Part shown: positions 19,873-50,950 of the stretch, in pieces
Layout: each line of letters begins with the position of its first letter
Numbering within the stretch: the first letter of the stretch is position 1
Source: Nitrosopumilus oxyclinae
Lineage (GTDB): Archaea > Thermoproteota > Nitrososphaeria > Nitrososphaerales > Nitrosopumilaceae
DNA: 64,000 nt
Assembly (NCBI RefSeq): GCF_013407165.1
Contig: NZ_CP026994.1
Span: 1,330,187-1,394,186 of the forward strand
Direction of reading: 5' to 3'
Position numbers and translations under genes: made by a program
The notes under the pieces: generated by a model
The model's input: only the letters and a program-made list of their open reading frames with translations
The model's database searches: none
What the model was told of the DNA's origin: nothing

Positions 19873-20835
19873 CTAAGATAAAGAATATGCATCTTTCATA
19901 ATTTTTTCTAATTCTTCAATATTTTTTGAAAGAGTAATTTTGGAGCGTAATTTTGAACCGCCTTTCATCCCTTTAGTAAACCTCATGGCCTGACCCTTAA
20001 TGTTTGCAAATTTTATCTTATATTGATTTGTAATGTGTAAATAATCAAAAAAAGAATCTAATCTATCTTTGAATGAATATTCATTGTAAGAGTTAGTTTT
20101 TAGATAATCATTTATTTGTTCAAACAAAAACGGATTACCCATTGCCCCTCTACCAACCATCACATAATCACAGTTCGTATGATCAATCATAGTTTTAGCA
20201 TCTTCAGGAGTAGTGATATCACCATTTCCAACAATTGGAATACTGGAAATTTCTTTTAACTCTTTAATTAAATCCCAATCAGCAATTCCAGAATATCCTT
20301 GACTAACAGTTCTAGGATGCAATGTGATCATTTGGATTCCTTCATCTTCAGCAACTTCGGCTATATCTCTAAAGAGAAATTTACTTGCATCTGTAACTCC
20401 AGAACGAATTTTTAAAGTTACAGGTTTTTTAACAGCATTCACAAGTGTGTTAAAAATTTGTTGAGTTAGATTGACTTCTTGCAGTAATGCACCACCTGCC
20501 ATTTGTTGAGTAATGTGAGGAGCTGGACAACCCATGTTATAATCAATAATGTCAAAATATGGCTCTACAATCTTTGCGGCTTTCTCTAACGCAGGAAGAT
20601 TAGAACCAAAAAGTTGAATTGAAAGAGGGCGCTCATCATCAGAATATTCAATGAATTCTTGAATTGTTTTCATTCTTTCTTTGAGTTGACTTTCTTTGGC
20701 GATAATACTATGAATATTTGTAAATTCTGTTACAACTAATCCAGCACCCATTTTTTTACATTGTAAACGAAGTGCAGGATCACTTACACCTGCCATAGGT
20801 GCTAAAAATGCCCTACTAGAAAATTTTGGAAGCAT
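19873..20835 (-). CDS. dus: tRNA-dihydrouridine synthase (Dus)
   Basis: Dus reduces uridines to dihydrouridine in tRNA using FMN. The 320-residue protein shows an N-terminal FLAPMAGVSD (about 10-19), the catalytic-Cys segment YNMGCPAPH (about 98-106), and FMN phosphate-binding VMVGRGAMGNP near 224-234. A TTG at 20841 is possible, but ATG at 20835 is favoured by the TATA box near 20854-20864. Confidence 0.93.
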   Translation of the reverse strand: MLPKFSSRAFLAPMAGVSDPALRLQCKKMGAGLVVTEFTNIHSIIAKESQLKERMKTIQEFIEYSDDERPLSIQLFGSNLPALEKAAKIVEPYFDIIDYNMGCPAPHITQQMAGGALLQEVNLTQQIFNTLVNAVKKPVTLKIRSGVTDASKFLFRDIAEVAEDEGIQMITLHPRTVSQGYSGIADWDLIKELKEISSIPIVGNGDITTPEDAKTMIDHTNCDYVMVGRGAMGNPFLFEQINDYLKTNSYNEYSFKDRLDSFFDYLHITNQYKIKFANIKGQAMRFTKGMKGGSKLRSKITLSKNIEELEKIMKDAYSLS

Positions 20836-20892
20836 ATTCAAACTTTACAAACTGAATATATTTATCATTCAAAAATATACCAAAAAATTCTA

Positions 20893-23064
20893 TTAATTAT
20901 CTGGGCAACCGTCTAAATCTCGGTCACCATCATAATCCTCAGGATCAAGAGGACATAGATCTTCATCATTAATGATACCATCTAAATCATCATCATGGAC
21001 AAATCTTTGTTGTTCTGGAGCAGTATCAGGGCAACCATCATGATCATTGTATTTGTTCCATGTTTCTGGGCTTGTTGGACATGAATCAATTGCATCCCAA
21101 TATCCATCACCGTCAGAATCAGGTCTAGTAGGAGTGGTAGAATCTGCTGCTAATACATCAGGACAACCGTCCCAATCCAGATACCCGTTAAAGTTCTCTT
21201 GTTCATCAGGGCATGCATCTTTTCTATCATCTATTCCATCTCCATCAACATCTGCAAATATGTAAGAAGGTATTGTACTAATGATAGAGTCTGGACAACC
21301 ATCATTATCTTGATAGAAATTATAAGTTTCAGGTTCTAGTGGACATGCATCAGAGATATCAACAATTCCATCCTGATCAGAATCTATTGTAAATACTAGT
21401 TTGTCTGGACAACCGTCTTTGTCTTGGAAACCATTGAATGTTTCTGGTTGAGCAGGACAAGAATCTAGAATATCAGGAATTCCATCACCGTCAGAATCTG
21501 CTGTACGTTTGTTATCATGAATTTGATCTGGACAACCATCATTATCTAGATACCTGTTGTAAGTTTCTTTAGAATTAGGACATTGATCTATATTATCAGT
21601 AATACCGTCAAAATCAGCATCACCATAGGAATCATATGCTATAGCATCTGGACAACCGTCTTCATCTTGGAAACCATTGTATTTTTCTCCAAATGTAGGG
21701 CATAAATCAAATTCATCTGGAATTCCATCGTAATCAGCGTCGGGTAAAGCAGATTTTGAAAATCCGGTAATATCAGGACAACCGTCAGTATCTAAGAAAT
21801 CATTATAATTTTCTGGTTCGTTTAGACATTGATCCCATCTGTCATCAATTCCATCACCATCAAGATCCGGAAATATGTAAGATGAGATGATAGAGCCAGC
21901 TGAATCGGGACAACCGTCACCGTCTTTGAAGAAATTATAAGTTTCAGGTTCTAGTGGACATGCATCTGAAACATTTGGAATACCATCTTGATCAGAATCA
22001 AGAATGGAATTATATTTATCTGGACAACCGTCACTGTCTTGGAATTTATTGTAAGTTTCTGGTTGGTTTGGACATTGATCTAAATTATCAACAATACCAT
22101 CACCGTCAGTATCATATGTTACTGAACCATCAGCAATCAAATCAGGACAACCATCAGTATCTTGGAATTTATTGTAAGTTTCTTTTGAATAGGGACACAG
22201 ATCAAATTGATTTAAAATTCCATCACCGTCTGAATCACCAGAAATTGAAAGTTCAATTTCATCTGGACAACCGTCTTCATCTTGGAATTTATTAAAATTT
22301 TCACGTTCGAATGGACATGCATCTACAGAATCAAGAATACTATCATAATCAGAATCAATCAATCCATTAGAATCAGCACCAAGAGTATCTGAGCATCCAT
22401 CCCAATCCAGATATCCATTAAAATTTTCTGGTTCGTTTAGACATTGATCCCATCTGTCATCAATTCCATCACCGTCAGTATCTGGAAAAACGTAAACAGA
22501 ATTAACAGTATCAACACTATCAGGACAACCGTCTAAGTCTAGATAGAAATTATAAGTTTCAGGTTCTAGTGGGCATGCATCAAGTCCATCGGAGATTCCA
22601 TCTCTATCACTATCTCTCAAATTTGAAGCATTATCAGGACAGCCGTCTTTATCATCAAATCCATTGAAAGTTTCTGGTTGGTTTGGACATGAATCCATAA
22701 AATCAGGATACCCGTCACCATCAGTATCAGTAATGCCTTGTTTACCTTGAGGAGATAAATCTGGGCAGCCGTCTTGGTCTTGGAATTTATTGTAAGTTTC
22801 TCTTACAGTAGGACAATCATCAATATGATCTTGAATTCCATCAAAATCAGCATCATACCATGGAACAAAATCTGCTGGACAACCGTCTATGTTGTTACCA
22901 TATTGAGGATCATAATCTTCTAAAAGATGAGGACAAAAATCAAGACTATTTGGAACGCCATCACCGTCTGAATCTATTGGATCAGCAGCAAAAGCACTAG
23001 ATGGCAACATTCCGATTGTGGAGGTAAGTAAAAGTAAAAATCCTAAAAGATATTGTTTTTTCAT
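20893..23064 (-). CDS. Giant secreted calcium-binding protein with thrombospondin type 3-like repeats (copy 1)
   Basis: A signal peptide (about 1-26, ending AFA) is followed by an uninterrupted array of about 17 units of some 36-45 residues. Each unit holds a D-x-D-x-DG-x-x-D calcium loop, an ACP or SCP cysteine, an ETYN-like turn and a DGCPD end. The abundant Asp suggests many bound calcium ions and the regular Cys pairs suggest disulfides, so the protein acts outside the cell. No C-terminal membrane anchor is visible. ATG at 23064 is chosen over 23106 because it starts the signal peptide (MKKQYLLGF, as in copy 2) and has a TATA-like box 25-36 nt upstream. Confidence 0.88.
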   Translation of the reverse strand: MKKQYLLGFLLLLTSTIGMLPSSAFAADPIDSDGDGVPNSLDFCPHLLEDYDPQYGNNIDGCPADFVPWYDADFDGIQDHIDDCPTVRETYNKFQDQDGCPDLSPQGKQGITDTDGDGYPDFMDSCPNQPETFNGFDDKDGCPDNASNLRDSDRDGISDGLDACPLEPETYNFYLDLDGCPDSVDTVNSVYVFPDTDGDGIDDRWDQCLNEPENFNGYLDWDGCSDTLGADSNGLIDSDYDSILDSVDACPFERENFNKFQDEDGCPDEIELSISGDSDGDGILNQFDLCPYSKETYNKFQDTDGCPDLIADGSVTYDTDGDGIVDNLDQCPNQPETYNKFQDSDGCPDKYNSILDSDQDGIPNVSDACPLEPETYNFFKDGDGCPDSAGSIISSYIFPDLDGDGIDDRWDQCLNEPENYNDFLDTDGCPDITGFSKSALPDADYDGIPDEFDLCPTFGEKYNGFQDEDGCPDAIAYDSYGDADFDGITDNIDQCPNSKETYNRYLDNDGCPDQIHDNKRTADSDGDGIPDILDSCPAQPETFNGFQDKDGCPDKLVFTIDSDQDGIVDISDACPLEPETYNFYQDNDGCPDSIISTIPSYIFADVDGDGIDDRKDACPDEQENFNGYLDWDGCPDVLAADSTTPTRPDSDGDGYWDAIDSCPTSPETWNKYNDHDGCPDTAPEQQRFVHDDDLDGIINDEDLCPLDPEDYDGDRDLDGCPDN

Positions 23065-23146
23065 TCTATCTGACTCCGCTATTATCATGTATTTATTAAG
23101 TCTCACGTTAAATAGATTCTTCTAAAATTACAAATTAGTAAAGAGA

Positions 23147-25315
23147 TTATGGATCAGGGCAGCCGTCTAAATCTCGGTCACCATCATAGTCTTCTGGATC
23201 GAATGGACACAAATCTTCATCATTGATGATACCGTCTAGATCATCATCATGGACAAATCTCTGTTGTTCTGGAGCAGTATCAGGACAGCCATCCCAATCT
23301 AGATATTTATTCCAGGTTTCTGGACTTGTTGGACAAGAATCAATCACATCTGGATAACCATCAGCATCAGAATCAGCATATGTAGGAGTTGTTGATTCTG
23401 CACCCAAGACATCAGGACAACCATCAAAGTCTAGATAATCATTATAATTTTCTGGTTCATTGATACATGAATCCCATCTGTCTTCAATTCCATCACCGTC
23501 AGTATCTGGGAATTGATATTGTGCTTTAACAGAATCTGCAGAATCTGGACAACCGTCTGAATCTAGATATCTATTGTAAGTTTCTGGTTCTAATGGACAT
23601 ACATCAAATACATCAGGAATGCCATCACCGTCTGAATCTAAGTTTGAAGCAAGTTTATCAGGACAGCCGTCACCGTCTTGGAATTTATTGTAAGTTTCTG
23701 GTTGATTTGGACATGAATCAACGATATCAGGAATACCATCACCGTCTGTGTCGGCAGTCATTTTATTATCAGCAATATAATCTGGGCAACCATCAGCATC
23801 TTGGAATTTATTGTAAGATTCTTTTGCATGAGGACATTGATCTACATCATCATATATGCCGTCACCGTCTGAATCTCCAATGGTTTTATAATCAACACTG
23901 TCAGGACAACCATCTTCATCTTGGAAATCATTGTATCTTTCAGCTAATAATGGACATTGATCTAAATGATCTGCCAATCCATCATAATCAGCATCAAGCA
24001 TATCACCTGCAGTTGTTCCTGGTACATCAGGACAACCGTCAAAGTCTAGATAATCATTATAATTTTCTGGTTCATTGATACATGAATCCCATCTGTCTTC
24101 AATTCCATCACCGTCAGTATCTGGGAATTGATATTGTGCTTTAACAGAATCTGCAGAATCTGGACAACCGTCAAAGTCTTGGAATTTATTATAATTTTCA
24201 GGTTCTAATGGACATGCATCTAGGGAATCAATAATTCCATCACGATCTTTATCAGAATTTGAACCACTGTCAGGACAACCGTCAGAATCTTGGAAACCAT
24301 TGTAAGTTTCTGGTTGGTTTGGACAACGATCTAAATTGTCAATAATTCCATCACCGTCAGTATCAAATGCAAATTTGTTGTCTGCAACATAATCAGGACA
24401 GCCATCAGAATCGAGATATTTATTATAAGTTTCAGGACTAAACGGACAAGAATCTAAATTGTCATAAATGCCGTCACCGTCAATATCACCTGTAAATGTC
24501 AATTGTAATTCATCTGGACAACCGTCTGAATCTTGGAATTTATTATAATTTTCTCGTTCGAATGGACATGCATCTACATCGTCAGGAATTCCATCATAAT
24601 CAGCGTCTGGTGCTTGTAAGGAAGTAACACCTGGTACATCAGGACAACCATCAAAGTCTAGATAATCATTATAATTTTCTGGTTCATTGATACATGAATC
24701 CCATCTGTCTTCAATTCCATCACCGTCAGTATCTGGGAATTGATATTGTGCTTTAACAGAATCTGCAGAATCTGGACAACCGTCTGAATCTAGATATCTA
24801 TTGTAAGTTTCTGGTTCTAATGGACATGCATCAAGACCATCAGATATTCCATCACGGTCTGAATCCTTTTGAGTTAAAGCATTATCTGGACAACCGTCTT
24901 TATCATCAATTCCATTGAAAGTTTCTGGTTGGTTTGGACAGGAATCCATGAAATCAGGATAACCATCACCATCAGTGTCTGCAATTCCTTTTGGATTAAC
25001 AGGTGATATGTCAGGACAACCGTCTTCATCTTGGAATTTATTGTAAGTTTCTTTTACAGTAGGGCAATTATCAATATGATCTTCTACACCGTCAAAATCA
25101 GCATCATACCATGGAACAAAGTCTGCAGGACAACCGTCTATGTTGTTACCATATTGAGGATCATAATCTTCTAGAAGATTTGGACATTGATCTAAATTAT
25201 CTGGTACACCATCACCGTCTCTATCTATTGGATCAGCAGCAAACACACTAGATGGCATCATACCTATGGTAGAGGTAAGTAAAAGCAAGAATCCTAAAAG
25301 ATATTGTTTTTTCAT
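23147..25315 (-). CDS. Giant secreted calcium-binding protein with thrombospondin type 3-like repeats (copy 2)
   Basis: This is a close paralogue of copy 1 with nearly the same signal peptide (MKKQYLLGF...VFAAD) and the same first repeats, 722 residues and about 17 DGCPD units. The array shows a longer period of about 205 residues: the block DTDGDGIEDRWDSCINEPEN occurs three times, encoded by almost identical DNA. It ends directly at a DGCPDP, without anchor or sorting signal. It lies 10 bases after copy 3 in the transcription direction and is likely co-transcribed with it. Function is inferred: calcium-dependent surface structure or adhesion. Confidence 0.88.
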   Translation of the reverse strand: MKKQYLLGFLLLLTSTIGMMPSSVFAADPIDRDGDGVPDNLDQCPNLLEDYDPQYGNNIDGCPADFVPWYDADFDGVEDHIDNCPTVKETYNKFQDEDGCPDISPVNPKGIADTDGDGYPDFMDSCPNQPETFNGIDDKDGCPDNALTQKDSDRDGISDGLDACPLEPETYNRYLDSDGCPDSADSVKAQYQFPDTDGDGIEDRWDSCINEPENYNDYLDFDGCPDVPGVTSLQAPDADYDGIPDDVDACPFERENYNKFQDSDGCPDELQLTFTGDIDGDGIYDNLDSCPFSPETYNKYLDSDGCPDYVADNKFAFDTDGDGIIDNLDRCPNQPETYNGFQDSDGCPDSGSNSDKDRDGIIDSLDACPLEPENYNKFQDFDGCPDSADSVKAQYQFPDTDGDGIEDRWDSCINEPENYNDYLDFDGCPDVPGTTAGDMLDADYDGLADHLDQCPLLAERYNDFQDEDGCPDSVDYKTIGDSDGDGIYDDVDQCPHAKESYNKFQDADGCPDYIADNKMTADTDGDGIPDIVDSCPNQPETYNKFQDGDGCPDKLASNLDSDGDGIPDVFDVCPLEPETYNRYLDSDGCPDSADSVKAQYQFPDTDGDGIEDRWDSCINEPENYNDYLDFDGCPDVLGAESTTPTYADSDADGYPDVIDSCPTSPETWNKYLDWDGCPDTAPEQQRFVHDDDLDGIINDEDLCPFDPEDYDGDRDLDGCPDP
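23409..23600 (-). repeat. 192-bp internal repeat of TSP3 copy 2 (unit A)
   Basis: By eye this stretch is identical to 24636-24827, at a distance of 1227 bases. It encodes the DRWDSCINEPENYNDYLDFD region and its flanks. Confidence 0.9.
24024..24172 (-). repeat. 149-bp internal repeat of TSP3 copy 2 (unit B)
   Basis: This copy matches units A and C with one base difference near its beginning (CCGTC instead of CCATC), then diverges after 24172. Confidence 0.88.
24636..24827 (-). repeat. 192-bp internal repeat of TSP3 copy 2 (unit C)
   Basis: This stretch is identical to 23409-23600 as far as I can read, and nearly identical to unit B over its first 149 bases. Confidence 0.9.
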
Positions 25316-25325
25316 CTAGATACTC

Positions 25326-27764
25326 CTATGGGTCTGGACATCCATCAGTATCTCTATCATTGTCATAATCTTCAGGTTCTAGAGGACACATATCATTCTC
25401 GTTGATAATTCCATCTAAATCAGCATCATGTTTGTATCTTGATTGTTCAGGTGCAATATCTGGGCAACCGTCATCGTCTTGGTATTTATTCCAAGTTTCT
25501 TTGTCAGTTGGACACAAGTCAATTGAATCAAGGATTCTATCTCCATCGGTATCAATTTTTGAATCCCAAATTGGAATGGCATCTGGACAACCGTCATAGT
25601 CAACATATCTGTTCCAAACTTCATTTTGTTGTGGGCACATATCCATTACATCTGGAACACCATCACCGTCTGAATCTGGCTGAGTATCATCTACATCAGG
25701 ACAACCGTCTTCATCTTGGAAACCATTATAGTTTTCAGCAACCAAAGGACATTTGTCTTTAATATCATTAATTCCATCGTTATCAGAATCTACTACAAAT
25801 GATTTAGACACAGTGTCAGGACAACCGTCATCGTCTTGGAATTTATTGTAAGTTTCTTTTGCAGTTGGGCATGCATCAATTCCATCTGGAACACCATCCA
25901 TGTCCCTATCATTCTTTAAAATATAATCATCTGGGCAACCGTCTCTATCAAGAATTCCATTGTAAGTTTCTGGTTGGTTTGGACAATGATCATTGTAATC
26001 ATTTATTCCATCATTATCAGAATCAGGAGTGCCTTTGTTATCTCCCACATAATCAGGACAACCGTCTAAATCTTGGAATTTATTGTAAGTTTCTGGAACC
26101 AAAGGACATTGATCAGATTTATCAGGAATTCCATCATAATCAGAATCTAATGAAGTGATGAAATCAGGGTAATCCGGACAACCGTCTTCATCTTGGAAAC
26201 CATTGTATCTTTCTCTAACAAGAGGACATTGATCTACAGAATCTAAAATTCCATCACGGTCAGAATCAGATTCTATTGGATCGTCAGGACAACCGTCATG
26301 GTCTTGATAACGATTCCAAGTTTCTGCTGTTGAAGGACATTGATCTAGTACATCTCTAATACCATCACCGTCTGAATCCAACACAGAAATATCAGGACAA
26401 CCATCTTGGTCTTGATAACCATTTACAGTTTCTGGTTCTAGGGGACATTTATCATTAATATCAGTAATTCCATCACCGTCATAATCTAATCCTAATAATC
26501 CACCTTTACCATCTGGACAACCGTCTTCATCTTGGAATTTATTGTAAGTTTCTTTTGCAGTTGGACATGCATCTAAATTATCTGGAACTCCATCCATATC
26601 TCTATCAGATGAAGAGTCATTGTCGGGACAACCGTCTCTATCAAAAATACCATTGAACGTTTCTGGTTGGTTTGGACATAAATCAGAGTAATCATTGATT
26701 CCATCACCGTCTGAATCTGGAATTCCTTTATCAGATGTTACAAAGTCTGGACAACCGTCTTCATCTTTGAACTGGTTGTAAGTCTCTTTTACATTTGGAC
26801 ATTGATCAATACTATTTGGAATTCCATCACCGTCTGAATCATTGTCACTTGTATAAGGAGGCATATCAGGACAACCGTCTTCATCTTGATAACCATTGTA
26901 TCGTTCTGGTTCTAATGGACATGCATCATTAGCATCCATAATTCTATCACCATCAGCATCATTTAGTGTACCATCAAATGCTGGAATACTATCAGGACAA
27001 CCGTCATAATCTGCAAATCTATTGAAAGTTTCAGGATGATCAGGACAAATATCAAATTTATCTGCAATTCCATCACCATCTCTATCAGTAAATGAAGTAT
27101 CTAGTGCAACATCAGGACAACCGTCTGTATCTCTATAACCATTATACACTTCTGGTTCGTTAATACACAAATCAATTTTATCTTGAATACCATCATTGTC
27201 AGTATCAATGAAAGAAGAATCTTTTAGAGTATCAGGACAACCGTCTTCATCTTGGAATCTGTTATAATTTTCAGGACTTAATGGACATTGATCAGCAAAG
27301 TCTAAAACTCCATCTCTATCTCTATCACCAGAACCATAACTATCTGGACAACCGTCTCTATCTAAAATACCATTGAAAGTTTCTGGTTGATTTGGACACA
27401 AGTCAACCAAGTCAATAAAACCATCACCATCTGAATCTGGTGCACCACCAGATCCTGTACCAGGAAGTGTATCAGGACAACCGTCTTCATCTTGGAATTT
27501 ATTGTACTTTTCTTTAAGATTTGGACATTGATCAATGTGATCTTCTATTCCATCATAATCTTCATCATACCATGGTACGAAATTTGATGGACAACCATCT
27601 ATTGTACCCTCATAATCTTCTCGTAAATTAGGACATAAATCAACAGAATTGGAAACACCATCATTATCAAAGTCATCAACTGCTGCAAAAGCAGGGTTGA
27701 TCGGCATACTAGTTAATGTGGTTACAAGTAACAATAGGAAAGATATCGAGTGTATTTTATTCAA
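25326..27764 (-). CDS. Giant secreted calcium-binding protein with thrombospondin type 3-like repeats (copy 3)
   Basis: The longest of the three paralogues has 812 residues, a signal peptide (about 1-27, ending AFA) and about 20 DGCPD-type calcium/disulfide units. Its units are more varied than in copies 1 and 2 and its signal peptide differs, so it is the older branch. Start is TTG at 27764; a TATA-like TTTAATAA (27799-27792) lies about 28-35 nt upstream. It is the first gene of the tandem set and converges with none of the flanking genes; taw1 diverges from it across a 138-base spacer. No anchor is visible. Confidence 0.88.
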   Translation of the reverse strand: MNKIHSISFLLLLVTTLTSMPINPAFAAVDDFDNDGVSNSVDLCPNLREDYEGTIDGCPSNFVPWYDEDYDGIEDHIDQCPNLKEKYNKFQDEDGCPDTLPGTGSGGAPDSDGDGFIDLVDLCPNQPETFNGILDRDGCPDSYGSGDRDRDGVLDFADQCPLSPENYNRFQDEDGCPDTLKDSSFIDTDNDGIQDKIDLCINEPEVYNGYRDTDGCPDVALDTSFTDRDGDGIADKFDICPDHPETFNRFADYDGCPDSIPAFDGTLNDADGDRIMDANDACPLEPERYNGYQDEDGCPDMPPYTSDNDSDGDGIPNSIDQCPNVKETYNQFKDEDGCPDFVTSDKGIPDSDGDGINDYSDLCPNQPETFNGIFDRDGCPDNDSSSDRDMDGVPDNLDACPTAKETYNKFQDEDGCPDGKGGLLGLDYDGDGITDINDKCPLEPETVNGYQDQDGCPDISVLDSDGDGIRDVLDQCPSTAETWNRYQDHDGCPDDPIESDSDRDGILDSVDQCPLVRERYNGFQDEDGCPDYPDFITSLDSDYDGIPDKSDQCPLVPETYNKFQDLDGCPDYVGDNKGTPDSDNDGINDYNDHCPNQPETYNGILDRDGCPDDYILKNDRDMDGVPDGIDACPTAKETYNKFQDDDGCPDTVSKSFVVDSDNDGINDIKDKCPLVAENYNGFQDEDGCPDVDDTQPDSDGDGVPDVMDMCPQQNEVWNRYVDYDGCPDAIPIWDSKIDTDGDRILDSIDLCPTDKETWNKYQDDDGCPDIAPEQSRYKHDADLDGIINENDMCPLEPEDYDNDRDTDGCPDP

Positions 27765-27902
27765 AGCCTAAAAATACGTCGAGGATCCAGTTATTAAACC
27801 TCACTCTAGAATCGGCTAAAAATATCAATAGTTTTGAGAAAAATTTCCATGTTGGACAAAAATCTCGATCAATTTAAGTAAACCAGAACACGATCTGAAC
27901 TA

Positions 27903-28934
27903 ATGAGTTGCTCTGGAGAAACTGTCGAAGAGGATGATGAGCAATTACTTCAGATCAGACCTGTAATTACTGCGCAATTAAAAAAAGCAAAATATGGTGT
28001 AGCAGATCATTCAACTGTAGGACTTTGTCATTGGACAAAAAAATCATTCAAGCATGAAGGTAGTTGTTACAAACACAAGTTTTATGGAATTTCAACTCAT
28101 AGATGTATGGAATTTTCCCCTGCTGGCATGTATTGTGAAAATAGATGTGTGTATTGTTGGAGACCAATGGAATTTTATGATTCTATGCAAATGAAGCCAG
28201 AGCAAGTTGCAGAGCCAGAACAGATTTTAACAAAATTGATGGGCGAACGAAAAAAATTGATCAATGGGTTTTACGGTGATTCAAGAAATGACAAACAAAG
28301 ATTAGATGAATCTTTATTGCCTGCACATTATGCTATCTCACTTTCTGGAGAGCCTACAATGTATCCTAAACTTCCAGAATTAATTAAATATCTAAAAACA
28401 TTTGAAGCAACAAAATCAATTTTTCTTGTAACTAATGGGCAAGAACCAGACATGATTCAAAAATTACAAGATGAAGATGCATTACCAACACAATTGTATC
28501 TGTCAACCAATGCTGCAGACTATGAATCTTTTATGAAAATAAACAAACCAAGATATGATGATTCATGGGAAAGATGGAATAGAACACTTGACATGTTAAA
28601 AGATTTGAAAACAAGAACAGTGTTAAGAATTACCTTAATCAGGGATCATAATGATCAAAAAGAATCAATTCCAGCATTTGCAGAAATGTTTAGAAAAGCA
28701 AGTCCGCACTTTATCGAAATAAAATCATACATGCATATCGGGCGCTCAACAAATAGATTAGAATATACAAATATGTTAGAAATGGAAGAAGTGAAGAGTT
28801 TTAGTGAAGAAATTGCAAATCAAAGTAAAATATTTTCAATAATGGATGAAAGTATTGTTTCAAGAATATCAATATTACAAAATAACGAACGATTTATTGA
28901 TCGTTTTATTCCTACTTATGCAAATACCATTTAG
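27903..28934 (+). CDS. taw1: tRNA 4-demethylwyosine synthase Taw1 (radical SAM)
   Basis: Taw1 (TYW1) condenses N1-methylguanosine-37 of tRNA-Phe with pyruvate to form the tricyclic wyosine base. The 343-residue protein has the radical SAM cluster motif C-x3-C-x2-C in YCENRCVYCW (about 77-86), preceded by GLCHWTKKSFKHEGSCYKHK (about 40-59), typical of the family. No flavodoxin domain is fused, as usual in archaea. A TATA-like TTTAAGTA (27873-27880) is 23-30 nt upstream. It overlaps the convergent ITPase gene by 23 bases. Confidence 0.93.
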   Translation: MSCSGETVEEDDEQLLQIRPVITAQLKKAKYGVADHSTVGLCHWTKKSFKHEGSCYKHKFYGISTHRCMEFSPAGMYCENRCVYCWRPMEFYDSMQMKPEQVAEPEQILTKLMGERKKLINGFYGDSRNDKQRLDESLLPAHYAISLSGEPTMYPKLPELIKYLKTFEATKSIFLVTNGQEPDMIQKLQDEDALPTQLYLSTNAADYESFMKINKPRYDDSWERWNRTLDMLKDLKTRTVLRITLIRDHNDQKESIPAFAEMFRKASPHFIEIKSYMHIGRSTNRLEYTNMLEMEEVKSFSEEIANQSKIFSIMDESIVSRISILQNNERFIDRFIPTYANTI

Positions 28935-40859: not shown

Positions 40860-43800
40860 TTAATTTGGAGGTTTTTGTCTAATGATAAAAATGAAAACTA
40901 ATCCGATCGCAATTCCAATGACTATTCCTACTGCAATTCCAGTACTAAATGGAAGATCAGAATTCACATTATTTGGATCTTGAATTTCTATTTTAGATAT
41001 TATTTCAGATGTATCTTCAATTTTTGTAGGTATTGTTTTTATTTCCACATTGACAGATTCTTGAGAATCAAACATTTCAGCAGAAATATGTGTGAATTTA
41101 GCTGCAAGTGTAATTGGTTCTGTAGTTGATGAACCTCCAAATAATGTAGAGTGTGTCAATAGTGTGTAAGTGCCAGTTTGGTTAATTGGAACATAGAGAA
41201 CAGTTGAAGTGTCATCTTTATTTTTCACAGGATAGAAACCCCCACCTTGACTAAAAATTGAACTGCCTAACCAATCAAGTGAAGCCCATCCCAGAAAATG
41301 ACCAAAGACTCCAGATGGGACATTAGTTTGTATTATTTCTCCTAAAGGATTCATTACAAATACAGATAGATTTGTGTTATTGCTAATCCAGGAAAGTTCA
41401 ATTGCTGCAGCATTGATGGATGGATTTTGAATATCAAAATAATATTGCCTCCAATCTCCTGCCATGTATCTATTAACCATATCAAATGCACCTTTTGTGT
41501 AACCATTTCCATAAAGAATATCATCACTTTGTATTCCTTTGATCAAAATAGTAGAATCATTTTCAATTACAGGTTGTTTGATAACAAAAGATATTGGCGC
41601 ATTTACAGTATGTTGTTCACCTTCAAAAGTTAAAAATCCTTGATACATACCTGTTTGATAATCTGTTGGCGTTACCAAAGTAACATCAACAGTTGATGAG
41701 CTTTGAGGAGAAACCAAAATTGTTTCAGATTCAGACCAAAGGATAGGCCATTTTTCTTTTTCATAGTGACTAGCTGAAATTGTATAATCCATGGAAGTAG
41801 AATTTAGTTTAGTGTCACCTAACCAGTAAGAATAACGTGTAGGGACTGGGTAAACTCCAACTAATGGAACACCATCAAATTTTTCATTTGGTTGTGAAAC
41901 CCTAAGTTCTTGAACAGTTCCCCATGAACCAGCTCTATTCACTAAAGATAATTCATCACTAGTAATTTTTGTATCATTATTGTTATCAATCCAATCATAA
42001 AGATAAAGAGAAGAAATTTTGAGATCATCTGCATAAACATCTGAAGTATTATTCATAAAATCATTAAATTCAAAATTCAGATTTAGAATCATTAGTGATG
42101 ATTCATCAGGAATTGGATCATCATTGTTAAAAAATTGCCCAAGTTCATCTTGATTTGCAAGTTCAGATAATTTTACATAATTTGGAATGAATGTATCAGT
42201 TTTATTCATCAAAGTATCTTGTTGTCTTACAATTGTTGTTCCATTAAATTGAATTTTAGAAATTAATGACAAAGTCTGAGGTTTTACATTTATTGTTTGA
42301 GATTCATTTGAAGGATTATCTATGGTAAAAGTTGTTGTAGTTCTATCTCCAGGAAGTAATTGTCCTGCAAACCAACTTGTCATTGGAAATGATTTTGAAG
42401 GTAGTTGGAATTTCTCAAATCCTATTGATGTAGAGTTAATTTTTTCAATTGCAGGTTCAAGAATATTTTTTATATTATTATATGAACCATCATTGTAAAC
42501 AATAAAAGTTCCATTTTTACCATTAACGTAATTTAATGCAGATTCAATATTTACCAAACCAGAACCTTGAGTAAATGGATCATTTTGTAAATCAGTTGCA
42601 GTAGACATGAGAATATTTTTGATCAAAAAAGAATCATAATCTTTAGATTGTTTTTTTAATTCTTCAATTAGTATTGCAGCACTTCCAGATACAAGGGGTG
42701 CGGCCATACTAGTGCCACCAAATAATGAAAAAGATTCATTTTTAGAATCTTTATTAATTTTCAACATATTAGATGGTACAAAACCATGGGCACCAATACT
42801 CATAACATCAGGTTTTGGATCTCCTATTGAACTAGGACCTCTACTAGAAAAATCAACTACATTGTTAGAATGAATTGTTGTGTTTCCAAATCTAGGTTGA
42901 TCCTTGAACGGACCATAACCAACAAAAACATTGTTTGTGGTAGCACCAACTGACATACCAAATGGTGAAGCATTTGGCAACCCAATTGTACCATAACCAT
43001 GACCTGAATTTCCTGCACTAGAAATTATTGTAATGCCAGGATAATTATCATTAAAAGAATTAGGAGTTGTAAGTACACTCAAAATTAAAGATAGCATATC
43101 CATTCCAGGGGATGCCTTGAATGATGGGAAATTGGACACACCCCAACTATTAGAAATTATATCAACTCTTGGATTTCCAGTATATTCCCAAGTATGTTCA
43201 TTGTTTTCAAATCCTGCAATCCATAACCAACCATATACAGTATCTCCAAACCACAGCGCTTTTACGGGTAGAATTTTTGCATCAGGAGCTACACCAGTGA
43301 TAGAATATTTTTTTGAATTATTATAAATGTCATAAGTTTCTTGACCACGTGAAGTGATTGAAGCTGCACTAGAAGTACCATGTCCCATAAAATCTGTCAT
43401 CAAGCCAAAAAATTCACCATTAGGATCCAAAGGTGGTAAAAGAGTTCCATTAATTGCCTTTAGTGCATCATCAATATCAGTAGAATTATTTTTAATTACA
43501 CCATAAACATCCAGAACTTGCGCACCAAATGTGCCAGCACTGTAATCAATTATTCCATCATTGTTTGAATCATAAACAAGGAATTCTTTTCCACTTCCTA
43601 ATACAATAGGCTTTTCATCAGTAAAATCAAAGTCATAATTTGGTTTTTTACCTTTTTCTAAATCAAATCGCGTATAATCTTCCCATGAAGTACTAAGATC
43701 AGGAATTATTGTATCATATACTCCTGGAATAAATGAATCAACAACAAGTACAGGTACAACTTGTATTTTAGAATAAGGTCCACTCAATCCACCTTGATAT

Positions 43801-44654
43801 ATCACACCAAGATGATAAACACCGCTTTTAGATTTAATATAATTTCTATTATCTTCGCCAATTTTCATATCAGTTGTTAGCGTTCCATTAAATATTACAG
43901 ATGAACCAATCTGTGGAAAAAATGAATTGTAAATAGGTATGTTACTACCTTTCCCACCTTGAGATACATCAAGGAACACACCATCCCGTGTAACATACGC
44001 TGACGATGTCATATGAGAAGGGATTGGTTTACTATAATTTCGAATTATTTCATTTTTATCAATATATGCAAAAAAAGTTGCGTTTGTTAATACAATACCT
44101 TGACCATCAGGATCAAGCATTATAGGATGATTAAGATCATTTCTTGCCAAGGAATGTTGTATATCAGGATTTGAAAAGTCAACACCCGTATCTACAATTG
44201 CAATTACAGTTCCATTTCCAGATGAATCATACTTTGTTTTAGCTAAATTTGAACCAGTTATTTCTCCAATTCTAGAAGCGTCTTGAATTTGATTATTTTG
44301 TGAATGAAAATCTAATTGGAAATCTTCAACTACAGTATACCCTTGAGAAACCAAATTAGTTGCAGAAGTTTCTGTAAGTATAGCAACAGAAAAAAATCCA
44401 GAATCAGATTGAATTCCATAGAATGAATTAGTTTTTAAAATATCATTTTTTTCTAGTTTATCTCCAAAAATTAAATATCTTTTAAAATCATTTTCAGTAA
44501 AAAAATTAGAATCAATATCCACAATACCAGAATCAAAAATTAAAGTATATTTCTCGTCATTTTCAGTTTTTAAATCAACAGGAATGAAAGCATGTGAATT
44601 AGTTATCATCGGAGAAAATAACAATATGAAAAAGAGTATAGCCACTTTGGGCAT
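40860..44654 (-). CDS. Giant secreted subtilisin-family serine protease, membrane-anchored
   Basis: The 1264-residue protein has a signal peptide (about 1-22), a subtilase (S8) domain with catalytic Asp in IVDTGVD (about 155), His in GHGTSS (about 422) and Ser in GGTSMAAP (about 647), a long beta-rich region, and a C-terminal membrane helix (about 1235-1258) with a short basic tail. A large insert separates Asp and His. The enzyme is therefore tethered outside and may process surface proteins. It sits between the complex III genes and the surface-layer genes and has no obvious partner peptide. Substrates are unknown. Confidence 0.92.
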   Translation of the reverse strand: MPKVAILFFILLFSPMITNSHAFIPVDLKTENDEKYTLIFDSGIVDIDSNFFTENDFKRYLIFGDKLEKNDILKTNSFYGIQSDSGFFSVAILTETSATNLVSQGYTVVEDFQLDFHSQNNQIQDASRIGEITGSNLAKTKYDSSGNGTVIAIVDTGVDFSNPDIQHSLARNDLNHPIMLDPDGQGIVLTNATFFAYIDKNEIIRNYSKPIPSHMTSSAYVTRDGVFLDVSQGGKGSNIPIYNSFFPQIGSSVIFNGTLTTDMKIGEDNRNYIKSKSGVYHLGVIYQGGLSGPYSKIQVVPVLVVDSFIPGVYDTIIPDLSTSWEDYTRFDLEKGKKPNYDFDFTDEKPIVLGSGKEFLVYDSNNDGIIDYSAGTFGAQVLDVYGVIKNNSTDIDDALKAINGTLLPPLDPNGEFFGLMTDFMGHGTSSAASITSRGQETYDIYNNSKKYSITGVAPDAKILPVKALWFGDTVYGWLWIAGFENNEHTWEYTGNPRVDIISNSWGVSNFPSFKASPGMDMLSLILSVLTTPNSFNDNYPGITIISSAGNSGHGYGTIGLPNASPFGMSVGATTNNVFVGYGPFKDQPRFGNTTIHSNNVVDFSSRGPSSIGDPKPDVMSIGAHGFVPSNMLKINKDSKNESFSLFGGTSMAAPLVSGSAAILIEELKKQSKDYDSFLIKNILMSTATDLQNDPFTQGSGLVNIESALNYVNGKNGTFIVYNDGSYNNIKNILEPAIEKINSTSIGFEKFQLPSKSFPMTSWFAGQLLPGDRTTTTFTIDNPSNESQTINVKPQTLSLISKIQFNGTTIVRQQDTLMNKTDTFIPNYVKLSELANQDELGQFFNNDDPIPDESSLMILNLNFEFNDFMNNTSDVYADDLKISSLYLYDWIDNNNDTKITSDELSLVNRAGSWGTVQELRVSQPNEKFDGVPLVGVYPVPTRYSYWLGDTKLNSTSMDYTISASHYEKEKWPILWSESETILVSPQSSSTVDVTLVTPTDYQTGMYQGFLTFEGEQHTVNAPISFVIKQPVIENDSTILIKGIQSDDILYGNGYTKGAFDMVNRYMAGDWRQYYFDIQNPSINAAAIELSWISNNTNLSVFVMNPLGEIIQTNVPSGVFGHFLGWASLDWLGSSIFSQGGGFYPVKNKDDTSTVLYVPINQTGTYTLLTHSTLFGGSSTTEPITLAAKFTHISAEMFDSQESVNVEIKTIPTKIEDTSEIISKIEIQDPNNVNSDLPFSTGIAVGIVIGIAIGLVFIFIIRQKPPN

Positions 44655-45772: not shown

Positions 45773-48700
45773 TTATTGTACAGTTACTGTTGTACTGACT
45801 GGTGGTGATAATGCCGTTGGATTATCTACTGATTCCCATACAAATGCAGTTGCTGTGTAAGTTCCTGCTTGTGTTGGAATCCATGATAATGCCGGGCTGA
45901 ATGATTGACCAGCAGATAGTGAACCTGTAATCCATGCTAGTGAGACTGTAACACCGTTACCATCTTGGATCTGTACCAAGTATGCGAATGATTGCTCTCT
46001 ATCCTGACCATTTGCTAAGTCAGCACTGATTTGCACCTGTTGATCAACGGAGACAGTATCTAAACTGTTGCCGAAGGCATCAACTGTTCTCAAGTTAGCA
46101 GCTGGTGCTCTCTCGAGAGGTGGTACTACAGTACCGATTAGTGAAGTGGCAGTGATATCAAGTTCATCTGCAGTTGTGTACGGATCTGGTAATGTATTGT
46201 CCTCATATTCTGCGGTGACAGTGTCACCTTCTGCGACTCTGAGTCTGTGACCAGATGATTCGTCAGAAACTGTAAAGAATACAGTACCTTCGAAAATTCC
46301 GGTTGCCTCATTAGTCTCAGTTACAGTAAGGTCAATACCTCCGGCGTCGGAGTCAGACCACACATCGACATCGAAGTTGTCGACTGCTTCTGGATTTAAG
46401 TTCATGTCTGGATCAATTACTCTTACAACACCTGTTCCGCTAGCTGGGTAGCTTGCTTCTAACCATTGTACCTCTCCGATGTTCCATCTGATAAGTGCTG
46501 AACCGACTACAGTTTCATCCTCTGAGAATTCAAAGGAGACTGTAATACCGTCATCGTCATCAGTTGGTAGTAGTCCATCTGTTGGACCAGTACCATCAAG
46601 AGATTTTATACCGGATGCATCGCCTGCAGTACCATCGCCATCTGCATCATGTGTTGTAAATCCTGTTAGGATTACTTCACCTGTGAAGATGCCTGTGTCA
46701 GTTCCAGTTTCGACGAGTTTGTAGTTGTCAATATTGAATCCTCTTGTAGAGATCTTTATCGGATCACTAGAAGTATTTCCAATCTCGTCAACTAAATCAC
46801 CGTCAAAGTTGTGATCTGGAGCGACTATGGTAACGTAGACTTTGTCAGTCCATGTGTATACTTTTTGGTCAAGTTCGACAGTTGCACCGAAGTTAGATGT
46901 GAAGACTGTGATGTTTACATCTTCATCTTCATCACCTACATAATCTGAACCGGATGGACCCCAATCAGTGTACTCTAAGATGATTTCTTCACCTCTTTCA
47001 AGGTTATCACCACCTAGAGCATCAGGAATCTCGATAACAATCTGGAAGATACCAGTACTGTCACCTGTTTCTCTGAAATCTGTTGGCTCTGGGTCAAATG
47101 CTGTTGCACCAACACCAAGGTTACCCATGGTAGTAGTAGCGGCATCTGAATCCCATTCGATTAAGTCCAAGTCATAAGTCTCAGCACCATCATTGTCAAG
47201 ATCAAGGTCTGGCTCAATGAGTGTTAAGATCATGTCGGAACCGATAATGTATACGGATTTGTCGGACTGCAATACACCGTTTCTTAGGTCAAATGTAGCA
47301 GAATCAGTTACAGTGTTAACATCACCAGATGCATCTGCTGGATCAGTGTACTCTACTTGGAGAATATCTCCTTGTAAGATACAATAATTCAGACCAGCTG
47401 CACTTGCAACGCTAAATCTGCTTAATTCTGTACCAGAAGCGGTACCGTCTATACTAGTAAAGCCTGTGGCTAAAGTAGGTGGACAGGTAGCACTTGCTGG
47501 ACCGTCAGTGTATCTGATGTTAAGATCTAATTCGTAAATACCGGCATCTGGGGCAATCTCATCGATTGGACCCAATTGTCTGGTGGCCAAAGGAGTTGCA
47601 TCGCCGACATCTATTGTGCCGTCAATTTCTGTTGGACCACCTGCATAACCGAGTACGACTTCAGAAGAACCTCTAACTACAGAGATTTTTACTGGGCCGA
47701 CTGCAGCTGCAGCGGTATTTGCGTTAATAGAATCTTCACCAGCTGGGTTAATGTCAAAGTCTGGATCGTTAACTCTAATGTGGACTGTTAGATCACCATT
47801 TGACAGGAATTCTCCTGCATCAAGATCTGCAGTATTACCTGCTACGACTCCCATACCAGTTTGGTGGATTGGGAATACGGATCTTTGTGAAGGAGTTTCA
47901 GTTGTTCCTGTAGCAAAGTTTGCCGGAACACCAAATGGTACCGGATAAACTGTTCTATCAAGGCTTACTGAACCTGTGTTGGCACGTACTCCTGCTGAGT
48001 CACCTACTTCAATTATTTCACCAGATGCATCTCTATAATCAACATAGTTGACTTCGATGTCGAGTCCGGTTACGGTCTCGGCTACACCTGTTGCTGCTCT
48101 ACACCAATCTGCTGGGATTTGGAAATCACCAATAAATTTGCCTGAATCTTTGGCTGTCTCTACTAGAGTAAATCCAGTAGCAAACAAACCATCATCAAAT
48201 TGAGCGTTACAAGTAGTACCAGTATTCTCCCATTTTACATCGTCAAATGTAACATCGAGGAGTCTACCTTGAGAACCAAATGAAAGGGCTTCTTGTAGGG
48301 CAGTTACATCGACACCTACTTGATCGTTATCTGCTCCGCCAGTTGCATCAGTAGATGGCTGTGAGCCAGCTAATGGTGCTACTACGGTGTAAATATCGAT
48401 AAGATCAGAGTCGACGTTTAGATCTAAGTCTTCTAGAGTAATAATTACAGTATCAGCTGCTTTGTAAGAGTCTTGATTTAGAGAAACAATACCAGAGTGG
48501 CTTGGAGCTTCTTCTTGATCAGATATTGGAGTTACTACACCATCTGCACCTAAGTCGTTATATGAGACTCTTGGTGCGTCTTCGTCAGTCAAATCTTCAA
48601 TTACGATGAATGAAGGATCGTCTGCGATTGGAGTAATTCCTGCAAAGGTTGCAACATCAATAATATTGAGTTGGTTAACCATGATATACTCAAGTGAACC

Positions 48701-50950
48701 TACGAAGGTACTTGTGTTATCACCTGTTTCTTCAGCTTCAATTCTGATGATTTGGTGTGCAATTCTTTCGTTTGATTGTACGCCGTCATCTGTGAAACCA
48801 AATGAGAAGAAGTCAGCTACTATAGCTTCTTTATCATCGATACCTGTAACACCTCTTGCTGTGGCAGCTCCTGCATAGTCAAACTCGATAGCGAGACCGA
48901 GATTTTGTCTTTTTGGATCTGTTGCACTAAACAAGTTAGCATCAAGGCCATTCAATGAAATGTAGTCCTGTCCAGTTCCGTTTGCAATAAGTACTACAGC
49001 GTTTGATTGTGTTGCTGTAGCATTAGATGTGTATCCTGTTGCAGTAAGAATTGTACCGGTTTGATTAAGTAAGAATATACTTACTTCATCTGCACCGAAG
49101 GATTCTACATTATAGTTAAAGAAGTTAAATCGGACACCTGTTGCGTCTGCTTGGCCAATTGTTTTTTGTAGTTCACTCATGGTTGTACCAAGGTCTACAA
49201 TAACTGTACCAACTTCAGCAGTTGCATTTACTACCTGTGAAAGAATTGCTCTTTGACTGAAAGTATCTACTGCTGCTGTAGAAGTTGTGTTTGCGCCAGT
49301 TCCACTGATCGTTACCAAGGTGTAGTTTGCTAGTGCACCAGTTGCCATATCTCCTGCAACGGTAGAACCACCTAATACGGTTCTAGTTGCATTAAATACA
49401 TTGACTGATGGTGTACTAGTTCCCTCACCAATGGTAAATGGATCTCCTGTTTTTAAGGCAGGAACAAGTGTGATTTCTGTGTTATCTAAATCTAAGTCTT
49501 CATCAGCTCTGCTGTTTTTGTTTTGATCACCGTCAACGATGGTTACTGGAATCTCTTCACCAGAGCTCCATTCATCATCAATTGGTTGGATGTCAATACT
49601 TGCAAAGCTGAATCCCACAAGAACAGTTACTGGTGATTCATTGTAATCAAGAGATGCTGAGGTTCCCCTCTTTGCATTAGTTGTTACTTGAATTGCTGAT
49701 ACATCTGATTCATCATATGTACCAAACACACCACTGTTTGGACCCTGTTCGGTGATTGTTACAGGAACTGATCCTTCCCCTAGTTGTGCAGTAAATGCTG
49801 CTACACCAAAGTTTGTTGCATTATTTGATGAGGCAGTAGAACTGGTACCATTTAGGTTATCTAGGATAGAATCATCGTTGTCCTGGATGGTAAGTACATT
49901 AGCTGTTGAGCCTTGTACGTTCAAATTAATTAACAGATTACAATTATCTTCACACATTAGTGAGGATCGTTGTTGTGCTGTTAATTTGATCGGAGTACCA
50001 CCGGATGCACCGTTTTCATCGAATACTTGGTAGTGTGGGCCTCTGCTTGTAGCGTTGGCGTTATTCGTACCAAATGTCCAAGAGTCTTCATCAGTTGGGT
50101 CAATGTTTAACCATAAGTCGGTAATTGTTGCGTGAATTTGTGAACCTTTTGGATATACAGATCTGTCCAATTCTACACCAGCAAAGTTATCAACAGTATC
50201 AAAAGTTAATGTGGTTGATTGAGCACCACCACCTTTGTTGTACTGTACGACAACGTTACCAGTTGGGTTTAGAGGATAGAGTTGTATAATTGGCCATGCT
50301 GCACCATCATTTAGCACACCAATTTGGCCTGCTGCTGTTGCTGATGGGTTAGCTGCGTCATTTAGGTTTAGAGTTTTTGCTTCTCTGACAACATTGTTGG
50401 TGTTACCATTAGTACCTGCTGGGACACATGCAGTTGAACCTGCAGTAATTGCGCCACCGCTTGAAGTACCATTAATACCACCTGTAACGTTACCAGATGC
50501 GAATCCGACTGTGTCACTTAAGTTAATACCAACTGCGGCTACGCCGTCAGCTGCTTCACAAAAGTCACCAAAGTCTAATCCACTACCAGAAACTAATGAT
50601 CCTGCTGCTGTTGAATCAGCAATCAGAGCCATGTTTCTATCTGCAAAGTATCCATACCAGTTACCGTCTACGGCTTGAGCCATTCTCAGGATCTTTCCGT
50701 TGACTGTAACATCTGGTTCACCTTTTGCTTGATCTGTATCATTGATATCAGAATCAATTACGACTACCTCAATTACTTGAGGACCTGACATGTAATTGTC
50801 AAACTGTGAGTTTTCTGCGGAAACAAATAGGTTAGCGTTGGCTGCATATGCAGCTGGCATTACACCAGGTGCTGCAAATGTCAAACCACCGGCTAACATA
50901 ATTGTCATTAATGTAAGACTAGTTATTTTACGTCCTATTTCGTTATTCAT
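45773..50950 (-). CDS. S-layer-like giant surface protein
   Basis: The 1725-residue protein is the best candidate for the main S-layer glycoprotein of this cell; the homologue in Nitrosopumilus maritimus forms the cell envelope lattice. It has a signal peptide (about 1-37, ending AYA), then a long string of beta-rich, very acidic domains, including several repeats with DSSTFV- or SGKFIGDF-like strands (TGIFTGEVIL and TGIFEGTVFF near the C-terminal end), and a last Ig-like domain. No membrane anchor is obvious. Its base composition is visibly richer in G and C than its neighbours, in line with strong expression. Confidence 0.9.
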   Translation of the reverse strand: MNNEIGRKITSLTLMTIMLAGGLTFAAPGVMPAAYAANANLFVSAENSQFDNYMSGPQVIEVVVIDSDINDTDQAKGEPDVTVNGKILRMAQAVDGNWYGYFADRNMALIADSTAAGSLVSGSGLDFGDFCEAADGVAAVGINLSDTVGFASGNVTGGINGTSSGGAITAGSTACVPAGTNGNTNNVVREAKTLNLNDAANPSATAAGQIGVLNDGAAWPIIQLYPLNPTGNVVVQYNKGGGAQSTTLTFDTVDNFAGVELDRSVYPKGSQIHATITDLWLNIDPTDEDSWTFGTNNANATSRGPHYQVFDENGASGGTPIKLTAQQRSSLMCEDNCNLLINLNVQGSTANVLTIQDNDDSILDNLNGTSSTASSNNATNFGVAAFTAQLGEGSVPVTITEQGPNSGVFGTYDESDVSAIQVTTNAKRGTSASLDYNESPVTVLVGFSFASIDIQPIDDEWSSGEEIPVTIVDGDQNKNSRADEDLDLDNTEITLVPALKTGDPFTIGEGTSTPSVNVFNATRTVLGGSTVAGDMATGALANYTLVTISGTGANTTSTAAVDTFSQRAILSQVVNATAEVGTVIVDLGTTMSELQKTIGQADATGVRFNFFNYNVESFGADEVSIFLLNQTGTILTATGYTSNATATQSNAVVLIANGTGQDYISLNGLDANLFSATDPKRQNLGLAIEFDYAGAATARGVTGIDDKEAIVADFFSFGFTDDGVQSNERIAHQIIRIEAEETGDNTSTFVGSLEYIMVNQLNIIDVATFAGITPIADDPSFIVIEDLTDEDAPRVSYNDLGADGVVTPISDQEEAPSHSGIVSLNQDSYKAADTVIITLEDLDLNVDSDLIDIYTVVAPLAGSQPSTDATGGADNDQVGVDVTALQEALSFGSQGRLLDVTFDDVKWENTGTTCNAQFDDGLFATGFTLVETAKDSGKFIGDFQIPADWCRAATGVAETVTGLDIEVNYVDYRDASGEIIEVGDSAGVRANTGSVSLDRTVYPVPFGVPANFATGTTETPSQRSVFPIHQTGMGVVAGNTADLDAGEFLSNGDLTVHIRVNDPDFDINPAGEDSINANTAAAAVGPVKISVVRGSSEVVLGYAGGPTEIDGTIDVGDATPLATRQLGPIDEIAPDAGIYELDLNIRYTDGPASATCPPTLATGFTSIDGTASGTELSRFSVASAAGLNYCILQGDILQVEYTDPADASGDVNTVTDSATFDLRNGVLQSDKSVYIIGSDMILTLIEPDLDLDNDGAETYDLDLIEWDSDAATTTMGNLGVGATAFDPEPTDFRETGDSTGIFQIVIEIPDALGGDNLERGEEIILEYTDWGPSGSDYVGDEDEDVNITVFTSNFGATVELDQKVYTWTDKVYVTIVAPDHNFDGDLVDEIGNTSSDPIKISTRGFNIDNYKLVETGTDTGIFTGEVILTGFTTHDADGDGTAGDASGIKSLDGTGPTDGLLPTDDDDGITVSFEFSEDETVVGSALIRWNIGEVQWLEASYPASGTGVVRVIDPDMNLNPEAVDNFDVDVWSDSDAGGIDLTVTETNEATGIFEGTVFFTVSDESSGHRLRVAEGDTVTAEYEDNTLPDPYTTADELDITATSLIGTVVPPLERAPAANLRTVDAFGNSLDTVSVDQQVQISADLANGQDREQSFAYLVQIQDGNGVTVSLAWITGSLSAGQSFSPALSWIPTQAGTYTATAFVWESVDNPTALSPPVSTTVTVQ

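Follow-up and report, generated by a model that had tools for sequence, protein, structure and literature searches.

Ammonia-oxidising archaea rank with the most abundant cells of the sea and, to our knowledge, little is known about their surface beyond the S-layer. In a stretch of 64,000 nucleotides from the closed genome (1.585 Mb) of Nitrosopumilus oxyclinae, hereafter the window, three tandem genes (A, B and C) had been picked out by a sequence-only reading as coding for giant, calcium- and cysteine-rich surface proteins without an anchor. The locus raises the question of what these proteins are, how their number of repeats is kept, and what they might do outside the cell. The proposed interpretation was reasonable and is partly supported here, its details on the S-layer and on seawater being unproven; it overlooked a super-repeat of five or six units, the fixed lengths of the proteins, their private promoter and a prior publication on such proteins.

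Three exported TSP3-repeat proteins between tyw1 and dus

The three open reading frames (ORFs) proposed on the minus strand were real, and their coordinates could be kept except for the start of C, which was shifted from GTG 23106 (ORF 20893-23106, 737 aa) to ATG 23064. The features of the locus are collected in Table 1.

Table 1. Genes and sequence elements of the array locus (positions in the window)
Feature	Position	Strand	Remarks
dus (dihydrouridine synthase)	19873..20841	-	Pfam; conserved opposite array flank
Gene C, TSP3-repeat protein with export signal	20893..23064	-	723 aa from ATG 23064 (most likely start), 17 units (2 + 3 x 5), 34 Cys
Promoter block of C, TTTAACGTGAGACTTAATAAATAC	23089..23112	-	Conserved across species
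Gene B, TSP3-repeat protein with export signal	23147..25315	-	722 aa, 17 units (2 + 3 x 5), 34 Cys
Gene A, TSP3-repeat protein with export signal	25326..27764	-	812 aa, 20 units (2 + 3 x 6), 40 Cys, TTG start
Signal peptide of A, MNKIHSISFLLLLVTTLTSMPINPAFA	27684..27764	-	A-x-A cleavage motif, same place in most orthologues
Promoter block of A-B unit, GTGAGGTTTAATAACTGGATC	27784..27804	-	Conserved across species
tyw1-like (radical SAM, wyosine base formation)	27903..28934	+	Pfam; conserved array flank

Parsing of the translations gave exactly two cysteines in every unit, confirming the three paralogues with 17-20 two-cysteine repeats that had been described. The units, usually of 36-44 residues in total, approximate to the consensus D-x-D-G-D-G-I-x-D-x-x-D-x-C-P-x-x-x-E-x-Y-N-x-x-x-D-x-D-G-C-P-D followed by a linker, and nearly all of them end in DGCPD. 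To call this ending characteristic was an overstatement, as it is common to bacterial proteins with thrombospondin type 3 (TSP3) repeats, such as MtsC. The conserved motif of the unit is D-x-D-x-D-G-x-x-D-x-x-D-x-C plus the second cysteine within DGC; among 23 A and 34 B/C sequences, the calcium-ligand aspartates and both cysteine positions were invariant or nearly so in essentially every unit. This Asp-rich motif supports the earlier suggestion that the proteins are likely to bind calcium.

The likeness to TSP3 repeats was borne out by Pfam, where TSP_3 (PF02412) matched the three proteins with E-values of 5e-30 to 1e-42 (103-144 bits against a gathering threshold of 25 bits) and was the only domain above the cut-off. 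A chance origin of the repeats is ruled out by these E-values and by the regular two-cysteine parse.

All three proteins carry a cleavable signal peptide (ending in AFA, with cleavage before a further A), which supports secretion. The chains stop one residue past the final DGCPD, and neither a C-terminal sorting motif of the PEFG-CTERM type nor a transmembrane helix was found in them that could act as an anchor. A second membrane segment is also missing from the mature proteins, in which the most hydrophobic 19-residue stretch averages 0.14-0.74 (Kyte-Doolittle); the claim that they lack an anchor is thus supported. The mature forms have masses of 77-87 kDa, for which giant is a relative term, with a pI of about 4.05, about 22% Asp and a net charge near -160 each. 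A related TSP3 protein of 9 units and 415 aa in another genome (L154:7677-8922) has a hydrophobic, probably membrane-spanning tail, and anchored variants may therefore exist in the family. Two further TSP3-containing proteins of the genome (C1:445386-445661, L001; C1:45907-45975, L002) have few units plus other repeat domains and fall outside the array family.

Orthologues of A with a similar length and likewise 20 units were found in dozens of species, and the array locus is bounded by tyw1 and dus in nearly all relatives examined. In one array-less relative (L178), dus directly adjoins tyw1, as an empty site. Four small-genome relatives (L149, L150, L157 and L158) have one array of 17-18 units adjoining tyw1, and this array lacks the usual last unit and a clear periodicity; these single arrays may be an early or a reduced form. 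Three ORFs antisense to the arrays (21954-22295, 23593-24078 and 25439-25762) were discarded, as they are apparently a by-product of the Asp-rich strand that codes for the arrays.

A private promoter pair

Two similar sequences are strongly conserved across species, AGAGTGAGGTTTAATAACTGGATC before A and TTTAACGTGAGACTTAATAAATAC before C. Their common core, GTGAGRYTTAATAA, has exactly two copies in the genome even at one mismatch, one before A and one before C; the reversed control pattern has seven. When four relatives were tested for this core, two had exactly two copies, both at the arrays, another had a single copy and the last gave zero exact matches.

A TATA-like box lies about 26-34 bp ahead of the TTG of A, which is the start codon in most orthologues, and from this distance the mRNA of A is probably leaderless. 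B follows A after 10 bp and is preceded by a GGAG ribosome site. The arrangement points to two transcription units, A-B and C, which are probably under one dedicated element. ATG 23064 is preferred as the start of C since the upstream GTG sits inside the conserved promoter block; the frame from GTG 23106 is conserved in many species, but conservation there extends to the DNA block as such, which is similar to A's promoter.

A super-repeat of five or six units and its length steps

When the units of each protein were compared with one another, identity was highest at a lag of 6 units in A and of 5 in B and C. The same was seen across arrays of the modal sizes, with a best lag of 6 in 60/60 A-type arrays of 20 units and of 5 in 73/73 B/C-type arrays of 17 units. 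The repeat is therefore hierarchical, with a period of six units in A and of five in B and C.

The number of units follows this period. Arrays with both end units had 7, 8, 12, 14, 17 (62 arrays), 20 (53 arrays), 22, 26 or 27 units, with three exceptions (19, 19 and 23). Once arrays with units of abnormal length had been dropped, all 136 intact arrays fitted either 2+6k (8, 14, 20, 26) or 2+5k (7, 12, 17, 22, 27), and the modal number was kept in 117 of them; the counts come from related species, and the length events are not independent. Collapse of repeats in metagenome assemblies could yield short arrays, not long ones. The rule was followed less clearly by arrays without the last end unit (e.g. 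L091, L146, L150, L155 and L157). Two records that apparently represent one genome (L058 and L130) hold extra arrays, one of 27 units and one of 14 units, the latter beginning like B/C and ending like A.

Lengths in residues are also constrained. The distance from unit 2 to the last cysteine was 748-750 residues in 56/60 arrays of 20 units and 655-657 residues in 66/76 arrays of 17 units; position by position, unit lengths are nearly constant between species, and the linkers hardly vary.

These regularities may have no functional meaning, a reading that concerns the length rule alone and is compatible with every role proposed below. Fixed lengths would then be inherited, and changes by whole super-repeats would come from unequal crossing-over that pairs the most similar segments, giving the same length steps without selection. 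We regard this as a serious possibility, somewhat short of probable. Units in the same phase are indeed the most alike, which favours such an origin of the steps; B has three 44-aa units with identical protein and 99-100% identical DNA, and this DNA identity of its units 4, 9 and 14 should favour unequal exchanges. However, such exchanges should alter the length often, and the modal number and the near-constant linkers speak otherwise. The contrary idea, that the arrays are molecular rulers, is put forward tentatively and looks rather doubtful at present. The functional unit would then be the super-repeat, with six units in A and five in B/C; selection would permit whole super-repeats only, and A-B and C would be kept proportionate by a dedicated regulator that acts on the private promoter. 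One super-repeat could, for instance, make a single turn of a superhelix, or provide one site at which a lattice or polymer partner binds.

Distribution, selection and history of the paralogues

With protein A as query, matches were obtained in 84 of 150 genomes of the family Nitrosopumilaceae. In a class-wide search, 78 of the 81 matching genomes belonged to this family, the other three giving weak matches (E about 1e-4 to 1e-11), and arrays were absent from some Nitrosopumilaceae lineages. Carriers comprise Nitrosopumilus and other Nitrosopumilaceae, and the same array cluster is present in genome L132, which we take to be N. maritimus SCM1. Nitrosarchaeum from groundwater and lakes has the same arrays; therefore seawater is not required, and the supposed dependence on seawater calcium is weakened.

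The dN/dS ratios against two relatives (about 0.09-0.15) indicate that A, B and C are under strong purifying selection. A hypervariable adhesin is ruled out by a dN/dS of about 0.1 together with the fixed length. Within a genome, B and C mostly show 55-75% likeness in their middles, which are 75-90% alike to their own orthologues, and mostly 80-100% at their ends, which look converted in some genomes; to judge from these values, B and C are old paralogues. The second unit (0.73) and the last unit (0.71) are also shared between A and B/C, interior phases being about 0.5-0.6 alike.

Possible roles at the cell surface

On balance, and with moderate confidence, A, B and C are read here as extracellular rods, stiffened by calcium, locked by disulfides and fixed in length, which make up or cross-link a matrix at the cell surface. 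Chains made purely of TSP3-type units would be exported by the Sec pathway; outside the membrane, every unit would fold around Ca2+ and close its own disulfide, and the folded chain would become an acidic, stiff rod whose length is set. Docking of the rods, to one another or to the S-layer, might be through the end units, which are well conserved. The rods would form or cross-link a surface matrix, itself increased under oxidative stress and promoting aggregation. Location, partner, calcium binding and rod shape are what we infer in this scheme, which draws on the TSP3 family match and the solved TSP3 relatives, on the conserved calcium-ligand aspartates and cysteines, the signal peptide and the absent anchor, and on the fixed array length, constant unit lengths, low dN/dS and shared end units. 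It also draws on published proteomics of three Nitrosopumilus strains under H2O2, in which two TSP3-like proteins rose 15-40-fold, S-layer proteins were also raised and small aggregates formed (PMC6593220). The role in a matrix or in aggregation that had been suggested from the sequence fits these data and is still putative.

Several points stand against the rod and matrix reading. No partner gene was found beside A, B and C, the flanks being tRNA-modification genes. AlphaFold models of A and B (23 and 34 homologues), computed without ions, were of low confidence (pLDDT 58, pTM 0.17) and without secondary structure, so that they do not confirm the rod shape. A biofilm study of ammonia-oxidising archaea ascribed attachment to other large adhesins and left thrombospondin proteins unmentioned. 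Anchorless proteins could simply be released, and some lineages of the family are free of arrays.

A role as pseudoperiplasmic spacers or as a scaffold of the S-layer, with rods that set or stabilise the space between it and the membrane, seems unlikely. The fixed lengths and shared end units would suit it, the S-layer of N. maritimus is calcium-dependent and highly acidic, according to the published in-situ S-layer paper, and S-layer and TSP3-like proteins increase together under H2O2 (PMC6593220). However, a text search of the in-situ paper found no mention of thrombospondin proteins, and some members of the family lack the arrays. The S-layer gene of the window (45773-50950, minus strand), orthologous to the N. 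maritimus S-layer protein of known structure (PDB 8c8k, 2471 bits), lies about 18 kb from the arrays, a proximity that does not amount to evidence of binding; A, B and C are not the S-layer protein itself, as its gene sits elsewhere. On the strand of the S-layer gene, and two genes beyond it, an S8 (subtilisin-family) protease of 1264 aa with a weak Fn3-like match is encoded (40860-44654); it is possibly an envelope protease.

It is quite improbable that the three proteins are no more than a soluble or loosely held buffer, released to hold Ca2+ or further cations in the vicinity of the cell without a structural role: their acidity and lack of an anchor would agree with it, but a mere buffer would not need a conserved length, register and end units. 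That the 34-40 cysteines of each protein serve as sacrificial thiols against H2O2 is very improbable, since the conserved calcium motifs and even cysteine pairing match structural intra-repeat disulfides, such as the title of a bacterial OmpA study cited in PMC6593220 names, despite the induction by H2O2 and the two cysteines in every unit.

The locus is conserved and dedicated, and it offers candidates for a matrix linked to stress, together with a length rule (whole super-repeats) and a private promoter that can both be tested; the quantised super-repeat, the fixed length and that promoter lift the finding above routine annotation.

Comparison with known systems

Calcium-binding TSP3 repeats, the type found in A, B and C, have been solved in thrombospondin-2 and cartilage oligomeric matrix protein (PDB 1yo8, 3fby); the thrombospondin C-terminal domain and other thrombospondin domains are absent from A, B and C above the Pfam cut-off. 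Cartilage oligomeric matrix protein and the TSP3 region of bacterial OmpA (PDB 5wtl, E 1.8e-7) are their nearest solved relatives. The OmpA region has the same calcium motif and two cysteines per unit, but it is short and its units are shorter, whereas in A, B and C the repeats cover the whole protein and Pfam detects no OmpA domain above the cut-off.

The best NCBIfam match of the three proteins was MtsC (NF047638; E 4e-38 to 2e-57, best 1.6e-57), a myxobacterial cell-cell cohesion protein that likewise has long TSP3 arrays of similar units. Their scores of 131-195 bits are below the curated cut-off of 350 bits, which places them outside the MtsC family. MtsC belongs to a bacterial envelope and carries a MYXO-CTERM anchor, whereas A, B and C are archaeal and end without a hydrophobic tail.

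TSP3-like proteins of Nitrosopumilus are already known from PMC6593220, whose authors drew a parallel with a myxobacterial cluster presumed to make a surface matrix; A, B and C have genus and repeat type in common with them. In its main text, that paper names no locus tags and describes neither the repeat architecture nor a promoter or synteny. New in the present analysis are the super-repeat of five or six units with its quantised counts, the private promoter pair, the tyw1-dus locus with its empty site, and the purifying selection indicated by the dN/dS ratios. A, B and C are specific candidate genes behind the published proteomic response, and can be tagged or purified.
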